From positions 1-20,431 of the IMG/VR virus record IMGVR_UViG_3300046387_000186: 20,431 nt of DNA. One strand, 5' to 3'. A model generated the notes under the pieces. It worked only from the letters and a program-made list of their open reading frames with translations, ran no database searches and was not told where the DNA came from. The position numbers and the translations under genes are program-made. The DNA comes from a virus. Below are positions 10,134-16,479 of the stretch, piece by piece. The first letter of the stretch is position 1. Each line of letters begins with the position of its first letter.

Positions 10134-11807
10134 TTAAAACGGTATGTTGTCCTTTATTACCTCAAATTTTTTAGTTTCCAAGTCAATGTCTTTATAGATT
10201 CCGCCATTGTTAAAATCGGGGGCCAAATCAAAATCACCCAATTGGCCGTTTTCTTTTCGTTTGACCTTTTCAATATATATTTTTACAACGTCGGATTTGA
10301 ATTTTGTTCGTTCACCAATACAGCGGTAAACAATCAAACCGTTGTAGGCTTTATTGAAAAAGTCAGCGGATCCGCTTATATCATAAAGAGTTGGTTTTTT
10401 ATACCGTCCGTTTTCGGATTCTATTTTTCGGGGGTGCGCCACTAAAAACAAATGTGTGTTTGTTTGTTGACAAAATTGCGTTATTTCAGAAAGCGCGCGC
10501 CCAATATATGAATGGTCCCGTTGCGCGGAATGGTCTAACATATTCCAGGGATCAATTACACAAACATTGATTCCCTTTTGGAATACTAAATCCCGGAACG
10601 CGTTTAAAATACCTTTTAGCGTTAAATTTTCTAAATCTATTTTGACCCAAAAAAAATGGTCTTGAATGAAATCTTTTGTTTGGTTTAATTGGTCGTTGTT
10701 GCAATTGGTTTCGTTTAATTTATTCGCGATGCGTTTAATATGTCCCTCGTAAGGGAATGATTCCGGCGCAAACATAGCGCAACGCATATCATATTTTAAC
10801 GCCATATTACAACAAATTTGATCCATTACGTCAGATTTGCCCGAATTAGGAATCCCGGTCACAACGGACCATTGTCCCATTTCCATTTTAAAATAATTAT
10901 CGGCGTTTGGCAAACCGATTGAATAATTTTTGACGCCGTTTTCGTTATAAGTTAAAACACTTTGCCAAATATTGTCAAGATTTAAAACGCCTTCCAATGG
11001 AAAGTTTTTAGCGGTTTTAATAACGTTTCGCAAAGTTTCGGCCCCTTTTGTCGTCAATATCTCGTTGGCGTCCTTAAAGTCGCCAAAATCGACGTATTTA
11101 CAACGATAAGCGCCGAAGCGCCGCGCCAATTCATTACGCAATTCAATCCCAGGGTTATCATTATCGGTGCAAAGTATAATTTCTTTTTTGTCTTTAAAGT
11201 ATTCAAAACAATTGTCCAAATATTCCAAACGCTGATTGCCTTTTGACGCGCCGTTTGGAACGGAACAAACGGAATAAATGCCGGCCTCGTGTAATGACAA
11301 CGCGTCAATTTCGCCTTCAACAATAAATATTTTATCCATTGTTTTGATATTGTCAAGGCCGTAAAATATTAACTCCGCGCCCGAAACCATTTTAAAATTC
11401 TTTTGCCCGTCACGATATTTGACATTTACCAATTCATTTTCGCGGTAATAATTAAAATTAATTGCGCGGCGTTTTTTACCTACTTGCGGAAAATATTGCA
11501 ATGATTCGCCAATTTTCCAATGTTGTAGTGTTGGTTCGGAAATGCCGCGATTTACAAACCATTTGACAACGCGTTCGGTCAAATTGACTTTTATTTTTTC
11601 CGGGCGAATGAAGTCTTTTTTCTTTTCAAATTTTGTTGTTCCAGAAAATCCGCAGTTGTGACAATTGAATAAACCTTTGTCAATATCAACGGACAAACAT
11701 TTATCGCGTTTGTTTTTACGTGTGTTGCTGCATTGTGGACATTGGGTTTTAATTTTACCGGTTGTTTTGTTGCCGATATCAATTCCGAAATCGTGAAATG
11801 TTTTCAT
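10134..11807 (-). CDS. Primase-helicase (T7 gp4 / Twinkle-like)
   Basis: This 557-residue protein joins primase and replicative helicase. Residues 23-52 form a zinc ribbon (Cys23, Cys26, Cys49, Cys52), followed by a TOPRIM domain with VEGEIDAL at 163-170 and CTDNDNPG at 213-220, where Glu164, Asp215 and Asp217 are the probable metal ligands. The RecA/DnaB-like helicase begins near 297 with Walker A GIPNSGKS at 318-325, CAMFAPES at 343-350 (H1a-like), Walker B VIDPWN at 417-422, FLVAHPRK at 454-461 and SGSADFFNKAYNGL at 478-491. All landmarks of a functional enzyme are present. It unwinds DNA at the fork and lays down primers. It lies downstream of the initiator and a nuclease in the early operon. 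No phage DNA polymerase is visible, so the host polymerase may be used. Confidence 0.92.
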   Translation of the reverse strand: MKTFHDFGIDIGNKTTGKIKTQCPQCSNTRKNKRDKCLSVDIDKGLFNCHNCGFSGTTKFEKKKDFIRPEKIKVNLTERVVKWFVNRGISEPTLQHWKIGESLQYFPQVGKKRRAINFNYYRENELVNVKYRDGQKNFKMVSGAELIFYGLDNIKTMDKIFIVEGEIDALSLHEAGIYSVCSVPNGASKGNQRLEYLDNCFEYFKDKKEIILCTDNDNPGIELRNELARRFGAYRCKYVDFGDFKDANEILTTKGAETLRNVIKTAKNFPLEGVLNLDNIWQSVLTYNENGVKNYSIGLPNADNYFKMEMGQWSVVTGIPNSGKSDVMDQICCNMALKYDMRCAMFAPESFPYEGHIKRIANKLNETNCNNDQLNQTKDFIQDHFFWVKIDLENLTLKGILNAFRDLVFQKGINVCVIDPWNMLDHSAQRDHSYIGRALSEITQFCQQTNTHLFLVAHPRKIESENGRYKKPTLYDISGSADFFNKAYNGLIVYRCIGERTKFKSDVVKIYIEKVKRKENGQLGDFDLAPDFNNGGIYKDIDLETKKFEVIKDNIPF

Positions 11808-11844: not shown

Positions 11845-12378
11845 TTAAATTTTTGGCATATAATAAAATAAATTTTCAATGTTTTTTAGTTTTTTGTTTT
11901 CAATCTCGTAATTATCTGTTTTTATTTTAAATGAAGTTCCGTTTGTTCGGGTTCGTTTGTCGCCTTTTTTATATAATACGGCTAATTTTAAAAGTTCTTT
12001 TTTGCTTAAATATCCGCAAATTGTGAGTTGGTTTTTTTTCTTGTTTAGTGAGCAAAATATATAAATATCACAATCAAATTTTGATTGATGCGCCACGAAA
12101 TTATTGACAAAATGATTCTTGACATCAACGTTGCGACCCATTGTTTTAACGTCTATTTTAAGACCTTTGTAAACCAAATCAAAACCGCCGTCAAATCCAT
12201 TTTTAAGTTCATAATCAAAACCAAACAAACGTTTGATCATTATTTCGCCAATCAATCCAACAAATTGTTGTTCCTTGGTCCCGTTGAATTCAAAGCGGTT
12301 GCCAATATTATTTTGATTGACGAAATGCCAAACATCGTTTTTTAGTTTTTCCGGGATATTGAATTTTTTATAATTCAT
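11845..12378 (-). CDS. PD-(D/E)XK nuclease, 177 aa
   Basis: The core fits the PD-(D/E)XK pattern: Glu45 in VGLIGEIMIKRLF (40-52), Asp67 in GGFDLVY, then Asp76 and Lys78 in KIDVKT (74-79). The spacing D-x8-D-x-K and the Gly before Glu45 are typical of nucleases in phage replication regions. The strand CDIYIFCS (103-110) and the helix SKKELLKL give the rest of the fold. The C-terminal 40 residues are basic. The gene starts 11 bases inside the replication initiator gene and lies just before the primase-helicase. A Holliday-junction or branch resolvase is a reasonable inference because no other resolvase is seen, but a restriction-like or host-DNA degrading role is also possible. Confidence 0.75.
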   Translation of the reverse strand: MNYKKFNIPEKLKNDVWHFVNQNNIGNRFEFNGTKEQQFVGLIGEIMIKRLFGFDYELKNGFDGGFDLVYKGLKIDVKTMGRNVDVKNHFVNNFVAHQSKFDCDIYIFCSLNKKKNQLTICGYLSKKELLKLAVLYKKGDKRTRTNGTSFKIKTDNYEIENKKLKNIENLFYYMPKI

Positions 12379-13252
12379 TCAATACGTATTTTTTTAATTC
12401 CTGGAATTCGTTGGACATCATTAAACCACGGATTTGAAATTCGTGAATATTGCCATTTTTAGTTTTTGCCCCAATTTCTTTTTTTCCGTTGGACTGATTT
12501 TTATATATAAAAAACTCTTTAAGGTTTTTAATTTTTGTAAATCCAACCGGTTTTTGTTTTGACTTTTGCTGCAGCATGAAGCGATCAATATATTTGATCC
12601 CGTTTTTGTCGGTGTTTCTTAATTTTAGAATTGATAAAAAATTGTTTTGCCAAAATTCGTCGTTTCGCAATTCTTTTGAAACGTTGTAAACTTCGCGTAA
12701 ATCGTAACCGTCCAACCTTTGCAATTTGTCCAAACAATCCAACCATTTTATTTTTTGGGTTTCGGATTTGGGGCGATATTTTAAAGGAAATATTTCCATA
12801 AAATGCGGAAATGCGTTTTTGGTTTTTTCATCAAATTGGCGCTTTTCCAATTTTGTGGTATTATCTTTTTTTATTTTATTTATATAGTTATATATATTAT
12901 CCTTTAACTTTTCTTCAAGGGGGGTCTTTAACTTTTTTTCAATACCTATTGAATTTTTCTTAAAGGGGTCCGCAATAAATATTCGGCGCTGTTTTATTTG
13001 TTTTGTGCCGGTGTGATATTTATATTTTATTTTTATAAAGTTGTTGTTTTCCAGGGCTGAAATCCATTTTGAAACGCTTGTTTTTGTAACCCCATAAAGT
13101 TTTGAAAAGTATTCATTTGAAGCGTAACAATAACCGGAATCATTTGCCAAGGCCGTGATTTCGCCATACATTAATTTTGCGTTTGGTTGTAGTTTTTTAC
13201 AATATCGGACCGGTGCCGGAATTACGGCGAAATAGTTTTTTTTGTTTTCCAT
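12368..13252 (-). CDS. Replication initiator (winged-helix, lambda O-like role)
   Basis: The 294-residue protein begins with the HTH_36-type initiator signature: YFAVIPAPVRYCKKLQPNAKLMYGEI (7-32), then CYASNEYFSKLYGVTKTSVSKWISALENN (42-70), a winged-helix domain common in phage and plasmid initiators of low-GC hosts. Residues 95-135 form a Lys-rich, low-complexity linker. The C-terminal half is helical (IKWLDCLDKLQ, LRNDEFWQNNFLSILKL) and could contact the helicase. The DNA for the linker has iteron-like repeats, a palindrome and an A/T-rich run, so the origin may lie inside the gene. A full-consensus promoter ends five bases before the start ATG. The primase-helicase is two genes downstream. 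Confidence 0.85.
   Translation of the reverse strand: MENKKNYFAVIPAPVRYCKKLQPNAKLMYGEITALANDSGYCYASNEYFSKLYGVTKTSVSKWISALENNNFIKIKYKYHTGTKQIKQRRIFIADPFKKNSIGIEKKLKTPLEEKLKDNIYNYINKIKKDNTTKLEKRQFDEKTKNAFPHFMEIFPLKYRPKSETQKIKWLDCLDKLQRLDGYDLREVYNVSKELRNDEFWQNNFLSILKLRNTDKNGIKYIDRFMLQQKSKQKPVGFTKIKNLKEFFIYKNQSNGKKEIGAKTKNGNIHEFQIRGLMMSNEFQELKKYVLNEL
12859..12969. other. Candidate replication origin inside the initiator gene
   Basis: The stretch 12859-12900 has only two G/C bases in 42 and could be the unwinding element. Next to it are direct repeats CTTTAACTTTT (12902-12912 and 12926-12936, spaced 24 bases). TTCTTcAAGGGG and TTCTTaAAGGGG occur at 12911-12922 and 12956-12967. Between them is the inverted repeat TTCAATA-CC-TATTGAA (12938-12953). 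The arrangement resembles lambda ori inside gene O. This is pattern-based inference. Confidence 0.5.
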
Positions 13253-14131: not shown

Positions 14132-14354
14132 TTTTTTTGTTTTTAAAATTTTTAAAAAAATATTCGTCGGTAAAATCAATATTTTCCAATAATTGCATTA
14201 AATTGGATTTTGTTAAATCTATGTAATCATATTTTTTTGTGTCTATTATTACCGATGATGTTGCAGCAAATTCACATCTTATAAAATCAAAATCGGCGTC
14301 AATAATATCGCAATAAATAGAATGTTTATTTTTTTTCAAATTGTTTTCAATCAT
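14121..14354 (-). CDS. Hypothetical acidic protein, 77 aa
   Basis: The start ATG at 14354 overlaps the TGA of the DnaA-like gene by four bases (ATGA), a strong sign of translational coupling. The 77 residues are acidic, with alternating hydrophobic strands (SIYCDIIDADFDFIRCEF, SSVIIDTKKYDYIDL) and a C-terminal helix with NIDFTDEYFFKNFKNKK. The many Asp residues in the strands might mimic DNA or bind metal, but this is speculation. No family is recognised. Because it is coupled to a protein that looks like a bare DnaA DNA-binding domain, the two may act together. Confidence 0.62.
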   Translation of the reverse strand: MIENNLKKNKHSIYCDIIDADFDFIRCEFAATSSVIIDTKKYDYIDLTKSNLMQLLENIDFTDEYFFKNFKNKKNEL

Positions 14355-14728
14355 TTTGTGTGATTTTTAAGTTGTTTTTTTAAAATGTCGTTTTCAATTA
14401 ATAATGTGTTGTACTTATAAAGCAATGTTTCGGCGGTCATTTTTTCACTTTCGTAATTGCTTAAAACAATCATTTTAAGTGTTTCAAAATCAATGCGGAA
14501 AAAATCATCAAACCGGACCCAATTATCCAAATTGGCCAAACCGTATAAAACCGAAGCGTGATCACGACCAACGGCCGCGCCGATTTTTTTCATTGATATT
14601 TTACAAACATTTTTTGCAAGCCAAAAATAAACCGCGCGCGCCATTACAAGTTCGCGATCGCGTTTGTTTTGTCTGATGTCACAATTAAAATGTTTGTTGA
14701 CTAATTTTATAATTTGTTTTAGTTCCAT
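14351..14728 (-). CDS. Stand-alone DnaA domain IV-like protein, 125 aa
   Basis: Residues 22-69 match the C-terminal DNA-binding domain of DnaA: KRDRELVMARAVYFWLAKN (22-40), then MKKIGAAVGRDHASVLYGL (46-64). The GRDHASV segment corresponds to the DnaA signature GRDHTTV, and the Arg, Asp, His and Ser/Thr that read DnaA boxes are present. The AAA+ domain III and the N-terminal domains are missing. Residues 95-125 form a coiled-coil-like helix (AETLLYKYNTLLIENDILKKQL) that could make dimers. It lies between the RecE-like gene and a coupled acidic protein. It could mark the phage origin, recruit or block host DnaA, or regulate transcription. Confidence 0.85.
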   Translation of the reverse strand: MELKQIIKLVNKHFNCDIRQNKRDRELVMARAVYFWLAKNVCKISMKKIGAAVGRDHASVLYGLANLDNWVRFDDFFRIDFETLKMIVLSNYESEKMTAETLLYKYNTLLIENDILKKQLKNHTK

Positions 14729-14730
14729 TT

Positions 14731-15486
14731 TTATAATATTAAACTTCCATCGTCGTGAAATTCATTCCAGGAATAACCCGAAACAATCCCCGTTTCGCAA
14801 TAAATTTTCCAATCATCAAACGCCCGTTTCCAAGCTTTGCGGCCTTGGTCAATCATTTCGTCGCTCAATGTGTAAACCTCAACCGTGAACGGAAAATTTG
14901 TTTCAACGGCAATAAATTTAAAATTGTCAACGCCGCATTGGTCCATATAAAAAGCCGCTTGCAAGTGATACGCATATTTATACACGTCACGGCGAAAAGC
15001 CGACGGCGCATTGTCTTGGCATGTTTTAACGTCCGAAATAAAACCCGAAACGCGATTCAAACAATCGGGGCGGACCCGAACGTCCAAACCTTCATGTTTG
15101 CCATAGTGCGACAATTCAATTTCGCCCTGACAATATTTTTGCGCCAAATCGTGTTTGCGAAAGTTTTCCAAAATTTTTGTAATTTTTTCGTGATCGTCAA
15201 AAGAAACAATTTTTTTGCCTTCGGCCTTTTTTTGTTCAATTATAAATTGTTCTTTTCCGGCCTTTGTGCGGCGATCAATTTTTGGTATCACGTGAAATTC
15301 TTTGTAATAGAGTTCGGGTTCTAGCATTGCGCAATGGACCGCCGTTCCAAGTGCCATTGCTGACGATTCAAACGGTTTTTGGTTAATGAAATGATAAACC
15401 GATTTTTTATAAATAGCTTTTAAACCCGACGCGCTGATCCCTGGCGTCGAATGATATTTTTCGTTTGTGTCAAATTGTGTTTTCAT
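14731..15486 (-). CDS. RecE/exonuclease VIII-like PD-(D/E)XK nuclease
   Basis: From the ATG at 15486 the protein has 251 residues; a TTG at 15510 would add eight. It fits the PDDEXK family related to the RecE nuclease domain (DUF3799-like): SASGLKAIYKKSVYHF (18-33), GTAVHCAMLEP (47-57) with His51, EGLDVRVRPDCLN (132-144) with Asp141, ISDVKTC (150-156) with Asp152 and Lys154, and AYHLQAAFYMDQ (172-183). These residues form the metal site of an ATP-independent 5'-3' exonuclease that makes 3' overhangs for annealing. The SSB-like and probable annealing proteins are encoded just upstream, which supports a recombination set. Three bases separate it from the DnaA-like gene. Confidence 0.88.
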   Translation of the reverse strand: MKTQFDTNEKYHSTPGISASGLKAIYKKSVYHFINQKPFESSAMALGTAVHCAMLEPELYYKEFHVIPKIDRRTKAGKEQFIIEQKKAEGKKIVSFDDHEKITKILENFRKHDLAQKYCQGEIELSHYGKHEGLDVRVRPDCLNRVSGFISDVKTCQDNAPSAFRRDVYKYAYHLQAAFYMDQCGVDNFKFIAVETNFPFTVEVYTLSDEMIDQGRKAWKRAFDDWKIYCETGIVSGYSWNEFHDDGSLIL

Positions 15487-15496
15487 TTTTATTGTT

Positions 15497-15616
15497 TTAT
15501 TCGTTTTCAATTATCAAATAATTATTTATTTCATCAATTGTTGTTTCGAGTTTGTCAATTTTTTTTTGCATTGCCTCAATCCGCAGTTGTAAATATTTAA
15601 TCATTAATTTTTGCAT
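15497..15616 (-). CDS. Tiny coiled-coil protein, 39 aa
   Basis: ATG at 15616 and TAA at 15497 encode 39 residues beginning MQKLMIKYLQLRIEAMQKKI and ending NNYLIIENE. Hydrophobic residues at heptad-like positions (Leu, Ile, Leu, Ile, Met, Ile, Leu, Ile) predict a short coiled coil over most of its length. The stop lies 11 bases before the ATG of the RecE-like gene, and the start is preceded by an A-rich leader (AATTAAAGAAA). A TAATTTTG promoter element lies upstream, after the SSB terminator. I do not recognise a family. Similar short coiled-coil peptides are frequent in phage early operons. Confidence is moderate because of its size. Confidence 0.55.
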   Translation of the reverse strand: MQKLMIKYLQLRIEAMQKKIDKLETTIDEINNYLIIENE

Positions 15617-15658
15617 TTTCTTTAATTTGTCTAAAATTAAAAATATATTTTCAATTTA

Positions 15659-15666
15659 CAAAATTA
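15659..15666 (-). promoter_or_regulatory. Promoter -7 element TAATTTTG after the SSB terminator
   Basis: TAATTTTG fits TAnnTTTG and lies five bases after the T-tract of the preceding terminator, about 43 bases before the ATG at 15616. It would restart transcription for the coiled-coil, RecE-like and DnaA-like genes. No -33 TTTG is visible. Confidence 0.45.
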
Positions 15667-15670
15667 TTTT

Positions 15671-15704
15671 AAAAAAAAACGGCCTCATATCTGAAACCGC
15701 TTTT
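15671..15704 (-). terminator. Rho-independent terminator after the SSB-like gene
   Basis: On the minus strand CGGTTTC (15699-15693) pairs with GAGGCCG (15686-15680), 7 bp with two G-U pairs and loop AGATAT, followed by nine T. The loop and flanks (TTTCAGATATGAG) resemble those of the terminator at 9293-9326. Confidence 0.85.
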
Positions 15705-15727
15705 CGCTTTGTTTGTCGTTTTGTCGT

Positions 15728-15964
15728 TTAAAACGGCAAATCGTCGGACGTTTCGGCGACCGTTGCCGCTTCTTGTTTGACGTATGGATCGGACAATTTA
15801 ATTGAAAAGAATTTGCCTTTTGCGCCGTCCTTGACCCAAGCGGCGATTTGTTGATTTGTGCCGTCTTGTAATTTAATCGAACCGGAATAATCGGGTTGAT
15901 TGTCGTTTGTTTTGTTGGTGTTTTTAAATAAACTCCCATTTCCATTGTTGTGTTCGTATGCCAT
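15728..15964 (-). CDS. Miniature single-stranded DNA-binding protein with DDLPF tail, 78 aa
   Basis: The 78 residues end in SDDLPF, the acidic tip by which SSB proteins bind their partners. The body has SLFKN (11-15), PDYSGSIKL (24-32), QQIAAWVKDGAKG (38-50) and KFFSIKLSDP (51-60), which suggests four or five beta strands. It is shorter than a classical SSB OB fold of about 110 residues. The SLFKN...PDYSGS...AAW pattern occurs in small phage proteins near recombination genes. Together with the tail it suggests a reduced OB fold that coats ssDNA and recruits host partners. It follows the putative annealing protein after 11 bases and is ended by a terminator. The tail is direct evidence; the fold is inferred. 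Confidence 0.72.
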   Translation of the reverse strand: MAYEHNNGNGSLFKNTNKTNDNQPDYSGSIKLQDGTNQQIAAWVKDGAKGKFFSIKLSDPYVKQEAATVAETSDDLPF

Positions 15965-15975
15965 TTTATTTGATT

Positions 15976-16479
15976 TTATATATTAAATTTTTGCTTTATT
16001 TGTTCGCTGTATTGTTTTTTAATTAAAAAGCCGGCCAATACCTTTTCGGCTTGTTCTTTTGTTGCCTTCATTGTCGCATTGAATTGCGCGTCTGTGAGCC
16101 ATTTTTTGCCCTCTTTTATTTTAGGCTTTGCAGCGCTTTGATTTTTAACGGCGCTTTGTACTTCATTAGCCGAAGCAATTGACGTGTCAATCCCGATCCC
16201 CAAGTAACCCAACGCCCGGCCCAATGCCGAGGTGAAACCGTTTTCAACAAACGACGTTTTGTTTATATATGACGAATCGCGGTACTCCTGCGAATGCGCC
16301 GAGGCAATTTTGACGCCTTTGTTGTCGCTGATTGTGACTTTAAAAATACCTTCCTTTTCGTCAATGTGGATCAATGATTCTTTTATTTGCCAACCATTAA
16401 ATTTTGATATGCTTCTAAAATATTTTAAACGCTCATTAACTGTAATATATTCGCGCCCCTTTATGTTGATTGTTTTCAT
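15976..16479 (-). CDS. Putative ssDNA-annealing / recombination mediator protein, 167 aa
   Basis: I recognise the N-terminal pattern INIKGREYITVNERLKYFR (4-22), a beta region with GIFKVTISDNKGVKIASAH, then SYINKTSFVENGFTSALGRA (70-89) and LGYLGIGIDTSIASANEV (90-107). The Thr-Ser-Ala-Leu-Gly-Arg-Ala-Leu-Gly stretch followed by a glycine-rich turn resembles the core of Rad52/ERF/Sak annealing proteins, in which a helix is followed by a similar Gly motif. The C-terminal 50 residues are basic and helical (WLTDAQFNATMKATKEQAEKV). The gene lies directly before the SSB-like gene and two genes before a RecE-like nuclease, the normal company of annealing proteins. The assignment is inference. Confidence 0.6.
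   Translation of the reverse strand: MKTINIKGREYITVNERLKYFRSISKFNGWQIKESLIHIDEKEGIFKVTISDNKGVKIASAHSQEYRDSSYINKTSFVENGFTSALGRALGYLGIGIDTSIASANEVQSAVKNQSAAKPKIKEGKKWLTDAQFNATMKATKEQAEKVLAGFLIKKQYSEQIKQKFNI

Follow-up and report, generated by a model that had tools for sequence, protein, structure and literature searches.

Putative Replication Origin Within an Initiator Gene

Our comparative analysis in silico of a viral DNA stretch of 20,431 bp (hereafter the window; a linear IMG/VR record representing an incomplete fragment) suggests that the phage replication origin lies, very probably, inside the gene of the very protein that would recognize it. We assign a probability of roughly 0.88 to the reading in which the linker of the initiator gene is the phage origin and, together with the domain that binds it, forms a self-matched cassette. 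In the mechanism we propose, dimers of the N-terminal PF13730 winged helix would bind three iterons of the type ACCCCTA-N5-A-rich6-N5′, with the recognition helix (T58, K62) reading inverted TTGAA arms around an A-tract. Dimers loaded next to one another, at intervals of about two helical turns, would then cause melting of the adjacent AT-rich stretch, after which the C-terminal domain would recruit a helicase, either the phage primase-helicase or that of the host. As the binding domain, its sites and the melting region all lie within ~400 bp, they would be inherited and exchanged as one unit. The iterons, their conservation at the DNA level, their clustering in a single place, their covariation with the recognition helix and their exchange as a block can be read directly from the compared sequences; from these we infer physical binding, dimerization, melting, helicase recruitment and origin activity.

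Domain Organization and Genomic Neighborhood of the Initiator

The replication initiator gene (12368–13252, minus strand) encodes a 294-aa protein, for which Pfam, PHROG and AF2 analyses delineated a PF13730 (HTH_36) N-terminal domain, a linker and a C-terminal domain. HTH_36 was the sole Pfam match above the cut-off (6e-12), with no RepA_N (PF06970) match among the Pfam hits of the initiator, and the comparison with PHROG indicated a replication initiation protein (3e-27). The core of the winged-helix DNA-binding domain was assigned by Pfam and AF2 to residues 20–73 (13034–13195, minus strand). The AF2 model had a mean pLDDT of 61 and was used for domain layout alone. It places helices at residues 23–35, 46–53 and 57–69 and a wing at residues 73–93; the third helix (13046–13084, minus strand) is the recognition helix and carries T58 and K62, the two residues that covary with the iteron arm. 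Residues 95–136, modeled with pLDDT <50, coincide with the repeats, and a separate C-terminal domain follows beyond them (12371–12844, minus strand). This last domain is common to two groups of initiators, referred to here as class A and class B, and gave weak O-like and DnaD-like profile matches. Matches to the O-like PHROGs 391 and 277 fall mainly on residues ~163–213, with weak wider matches to PHROGs 678 and 345. We presume that the C-terminal domain is the helicase-recruiting part of the protein; the likely partner of the initiator is the phage primase-helicase (Toprim and DnaB-like; Pfam, PHROG) encoded downstream at 10134–11807 (minus strand). In structural comparisons by Foldseek, the best PDB matches of the initiator were the pSK41-type plasmid initiators 4pt7, 4pql, 5kbj (a Rep-DNA entry) and 4pta, with E-values from 7e-4 to 2e-2; a PDB sequence search using the family profile returned zero relatives.

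The neighborhood of the initiator gene includes, according to Pfam and PHROG, genes for the primase-helicase, a RecE-like exonuclease, an SSB-like protein and a VRR-NUC protein. The RecE-like exonuclease and the SSB-like protein are encoded, along with a 167-aa PHROG 11717 protein, at 14731–16479 (minus strand), adjoining the initiator, and likely constitute a recombination module, which could assist cassette swaps. A few genes upstream of the initiator, at 14351–14728 (minus strand), there is a gene for a standalone DnaA C-terminal DNA-binding domain (PF08299, 2.5e-14), whose product might imitate host DnaA at DnaA boxes or block it there, or might serve as an additional DNA-binding factor in replication. 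The interval between the initiator and primase-helicase genes is occupied by a 177-aa gene (11845–12378, minus strand) without a convincing family match. The best cellular matches were found in a Flavobacteriaceae MAG (58%) and on a contig of a Rhodobiaceae MAG. The latter contig (NYTN01000016.1) encodes a close class A initiator, has the same length as IMG/VR 2786546945_000001 (19,158 bp), and is probably a free phage contig misbinned into the MAG.

Iterons and AT-Rich Stretch in the Linker

The linker contains three imperfect copies of an iteron, each composed of a 7-bp leader and a 16-bp dyad, followed by an AT-rich stretch (all on the minus strand). Iteron 1 (GGACCCC-TTTAA-GAAAAA-TTCAA; 12949–12971) is the most diverged and the closest to the winged helix, iteron 2 (ATAGGTA-TTGAA-AAAAAG-TTAAA) is located at 12927–12949, and iteron 3 (ACCCCCC-TTGAA-GAAAAG-TTAAA; 12903–12925) adjoins the AT-rich stretch. 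Read in gene orientation, the dyads occupy 12964–12949, 12942–12927 and 12918–12903, which corresponds to steps of 22 and 24 bp. The AT-rich stretch (12859–12902), presumably the unwinding element, keeps its position in relatives; it abuts the iterons inside the coding sequence, between the two domains of the initiator.

The original prediction had described this region as a set of separate repeats. A 42-mer with two G/C bases (12859–12900), the CTTTAACTTTT pair 24 bp apart (12902 and 12926) and the inverted repeat TTCAATA-CC-TATTGAA (12938–12953) were recovered exactly, and both copies of TTCTTmAAGGGG are present (TTCTTCAAGGGG at 12911, TTCTTAAAGGGG at 12957), although spaced by 46 and not 45 bp. 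All of these elements fall, as had been claimed, inside codons ~95–132. They are, however, not independent, but represent two halves and one junction of the three imperfect iterons, the inverted repeat being the junction of copies 1 and 2. AT-richness as such was rejected as evidence for an origin, since the window contains five places with 42-mers of ≤2 G/C.

When scored over three copies, the window array reached 40/48, a value attained by 0/400 codon-permuted linkers and by 9/400 synonymous shuffles, so that taken alone it is moderately significant. That the diverged iterons of the window barely beat the synonymous null counts against the origin reading, as does the incompleteness of the window. 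Such a weak margin is also what could be expected if the repeats were a by-product, devoid of DNA function, of a Lys/Glu-rich repetitive linker peptide and AT-biased codons, an explanation with which the common occurrence of AT-rich runs in the window agrees as well. We find this scarcely credible. Copies 1 and 2 stand in different frames: with a step of 22 bp, the frame changes from one copy to the other, one DNA word is translated into different peptides and the repeat is not one of peptide only. Moreover, the relatives exceed the synonymous null: L005, L008 and L021 scored 44–48/48 with 0/400 in shuffles, and the arrays of L057 and L087 likewise lie beyond 0/400. Conservation of synonymous sites and covariation of the iteron arm with recognition-helix residues (both described below) speak against a by-product too. 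A repeat at the peptide level was rejected on the frame shift between copies and the synonymous conservation.

Conservation of the Array and Its Uniqueness in the Genome

An iteron array was found at the same place in 21 full-length relatives (L002–L021 and L036; 71–98% best-segment identity), and close relatives carry near-perfect iterons, with CCTATTGAAGAAAAGTT present three times. Alignment of homologous initiator genes bore out the expectation that the repeats are conserved at the DNA level: in 11 aligned genes, synonymous codons were identical at 91% for codons 94–120 and at 89% for codons 121–140 (the AT-rich part) vs. 57–72% elsewhere. The copies in the window are less perfect than those in L005–L021. 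One could therefore suppose that the origin has moved and that the window iterons are decaying remnants, another origin being served, for example, by the DnaA-like gene at 14351–14728, whose presence fits such a scenario. We regard this as very unlikely, because L002–L004 and L036 carry the iteron set of the window nearly base for base, and because a perfect DnaA box (TTATNCACA) is absent from the window.

A protein-blind search for the iteron-pair DNA pattern in 2.9 million IMG/VR viral contigs returned ten stretches. All ten are situated at codons 93–95 of a PF13730-type initiator, some of them on contigs absent from our protein-search lists. Five class A relatives (~30 kb) have their iteron sites gathered in the linker; outside it, each of these genomes contains zero or one stray site, with one mismatch, and no iteron sites were present in two class B relatives. 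The linker of a class A homologue (L108) contains an expanded iteron array, with nearly exact direct repeats of great length in which the peptide QYCQNNQDGIDRTVK is encoded twice.

These sites might serve the initiator's own winged helix for autoregulation only, as a roadblock or operator within the gene, with replication starting elsewhere. The covariation described below supports recognition alone and not origin function, which is compatible with this explanation, and GC skew gives the linker origin zero support. In contrast to what the original prediction had anticipated, the skew rises nearly monotonically in seven relatives of ~30 kb, with no minimum at or near the linker, and was judged uninformative as an origin test. 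Nevertheless, we consider a purely autoregulatory role unlikely. The standard layout of an origin is a tandem of sites next to an AT-rich stretch, the iterons of the five relatives cluster solely in the linker, which leaves no second cluster available as an origin, and the precedent genes with this layout are origins (PMC6316719; PMC5703833; PMC8022706).

An Iteron Plan Common to PF13730 Initiators

The putative linker origin of the window follows a plan that recurs in PF13730 initiators of other phages. In a survey of phages of Fusobacterium, Lactobacillus, Staphylococcus, Enterococcus, Flavonifractor and Cellulophaga and of metagenomic phages, the linkers contain ACCCCTA-N5-A-rich6-N5′ units (with inverted arms), 22–24 bp apart, followed by an AT-rich stretch that is often GAGAATAATACAAGTATTAATAATAC. 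The plan is common to PF13730 initiators of Bacteroidota, Firmicutes and Fusobacteria phages. A detector with fixed dyad and spacing was passed by 70 of the 119 clusters (<90% identity), by 2.6% of codon-permuted linkers, by 1/107 downstream segments and by 0/119 upstream segments; ~40% of the PF13730 clusters fail these strict settings. Synonymous shuffles passed in 22% of cases, as in-frame copies repeat the peptide. Both of these last figures weigh against the origin reading.

Covariation of the Recognition Helix With the Iteron Arm

The N5 arm varies between phages, and residues 58 and 62 of the recognition helix vary with it. Of the 33 clusters with Arg62, 30 have C at arm base 5, compared to 2 of the 39 with a non-Arg residue ([[30,3],[2,37]], p=1e-14; 72 clusters). 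A fresh set of 31 clusters, collected once the rule had been seen, gave [[15,2],[1,13]] (p=7e-6). The fresh set comes from the same collection, in clusters of <90% identity, and is not fully independent; a tree-based count served as the guard. When a tree was inferred with the recognition helix left out, 12 of the 15 Arg62 changes coincided with a base 5 change, sharing both its branch and its direction (hypergeometric 3e-11). Of eight plasmid-borne homologues inspected by eye, seven fit, the remaining one (L431) being without a clear array. Arm words were set or corrected by hand for L154, L145, L180 and L168 in the training set; the fresh set contains no such manual words. The Arg62 rule has five exceptions among the clusters (TCCAC twice, TTGAT twice, and ATATG). 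An arginine contacting the G opposite C is ordinary chemistry.

When 95 columns of the N-domain were ranked by the information they hold about the arm, T58 came first and K62 second. In the proposed code, T at position 58 is paired with TTGAA or TTAAA, S or E with TTGAC, V with TTAAA or TTAAC, and K with TGGAA, TCCAC or G(G/T)GAC. Residues 58 and 62 partly explain arm bases 1–3, and the code is partial because bases 1–2 depend also on T56, S61, N46 and other residues. The window combines T58/K62 with TTGAA arms, as do all T58/K62 homologues scored. According to the original prediction, the repeats should covary with the helix-turn-helix, and homologues with the same residues and no linker repeats would speak against it; the covariation was indeed detected, specifically at residues 58 and 62, and no T58/K62 homologue without TTGAA repeats was found among the scored clusters, all of which had a detected array.

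The coupling of residues 58 and 62 with the arm provides the strongest evidence, evolutionary rather than biochemical in nature, that the linker repeats would bind the protein of their own gene. We found no literature on a family-wide PF13730 iteron plan or on a residue 58/62 code in a search that left most subscription journals outside its reach, and the recognition code was apparently undescribed before. It seems likely that, at least in Bacteroidota, Firmicutes and Fusobacteria, the linker of PF13730 initiators of phages and phage-like plasmids contains their own origin, and that a simple, partial code connects protein and origin.

Natural Exchange of the Cassette Between Class A and Class B Initiators

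The proposal that the binding domain and its sites move as one cassette gained support from relatives in which the two have been replaced together. In class B initiators, both the PF13730 winged helix and the linker repeats differ from those of the window, whereas the remaining part of the protein is shared with it: six of them (L023–L028) at 85–87% identity over residues 122–294, and another six (L029–L034) at 75–78% over residues 127–294. Comparison of the initiator neighborhoods of G002 (class A) and G005 (class B) gave identities of 95.7% between positions −3260 and +13 relative to the gene and of 93% between +370 and +4101; the intervening ~360 bp align at only ~56%. Nearly the same boundaries were found for G007 and G006 (flanks of 91% and 93%) and for the window and G006 (85% and 88%). 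Projected onto the window, the G002/G005 limits define an exchanged block at 12883–13239 (minus strand), which spans the winged helix and the iterons and extends into the AT-rich stretch. Such a block swap between phages with 91–96% identical flanks identifies, on sequence comparison, pairs of the G002/G005 type as natural recombinants.

The arrays of class B represent a second iteron geometry within PF13730. Those of L124, L135 and L137 have 15-bp steps and an A4–A5 centre vs. 22–24 bp in class A. A palindrome resembling CGGTAAAAACCG recurs at 15-bp steps in L124 and is present as a single perfect copy each in G005 and G006; no firm motif emerged for the repeats of class B. Behind the initiator, G007 (the L005 contig) carries an insert from +860 to +1760, counted from the initiator start, encoding a 296-aa protein directly after the initiator. 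G006 (the L026 contig) carries inserts at +1446 to +2052 and +3776 to +4380, one of which appeared by eye to be DNA methyltransferase-like. Downstream of the putative origin cassette there may be a hotspot for insertions.

Significance and Comparison With Known Systems

With these results, a loosely defined “probable origin” becomes a rule that can be tested: a widespread family of phage initiators seems to have its own origin built in as a ~400-bp cassette, in which two recognition-helix residues track the DNA word that the protein should bind. If true, origins, compatibility groups and cassette swaps would be readable from metagenomic sequence. The origins of many uncultured phages could then be located without experiments, and it could be predicted which phages and plasmids are able to share or compete for replication. 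The rule would also explain how a single recombination can switch replication specificity while the remaining replication machinery is kept. The match of protein to DNA, if new, would allow origin prediction from sequence.

Both the embedded origin and the movable cassette belong to kinds already known. In lambda O and the 18 genes of P22 and phage L, the origin lies in the initiator gene and each phage has its own iterons (PMC8022706; PMC7466680). As had been suggested, lambda O shares the plan of the window, which holds for the architecture: in the lambdoid phages, too, direct-repeat iterons occupy the central part of the initiator gene and adjoin an AT-rich region. However, the O-like similarity in the C-terminal domain is only weak, and the number, spacing and sequence of iterons differ. 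The same layout of a phage origin-binding protein with an embedded origin is known for SPP1 gene 38/oriL (PMC6316719); SPP1 has also a second origin, oriR. For ORF20 of the staphylococcal phage 80alpha, an origin in its own gene has been suggested as probable (PMC5499656).

In iteron anatomy and N-domain fold, the initiator of the window is closer to the RepA_N/pSK41 initiator than to lambda O. In the pSK41-type RepA_N initiators, whose N-domains are the top PDB matches of the fold search, the N-terminal winged helix binds sites in the central part of the gene; there the ori encodes a linker which the protein can do without, and a separate C-terminal domain follows (PMC5703833). RepA_N iterons were defined as semi-palindromic around a poly-A tract (PMC7145576), a definition that also fits the ACCCCTA-N5-A6-N5′ iterons of PF13730. 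The window differs from the pSK41-type systems in that its N-domain is PF13730, its gene belongs to a phage, and the C-terminal domain and the iterons are different. The chimeric rep of pPR9/pUSA03 joins a PF13730 N-domain to the pSK41 C-domain; in pPR9, the PF13730 N-domain and origin replaced ~500 bp of rep, and the plasmid replicates autonomously and is compatible with pSK41 (PMC5703833). Although it comes from a Firmicutes plasmid, the pPR9 rep constitutes an experimental precedent for the cassette proposed here.
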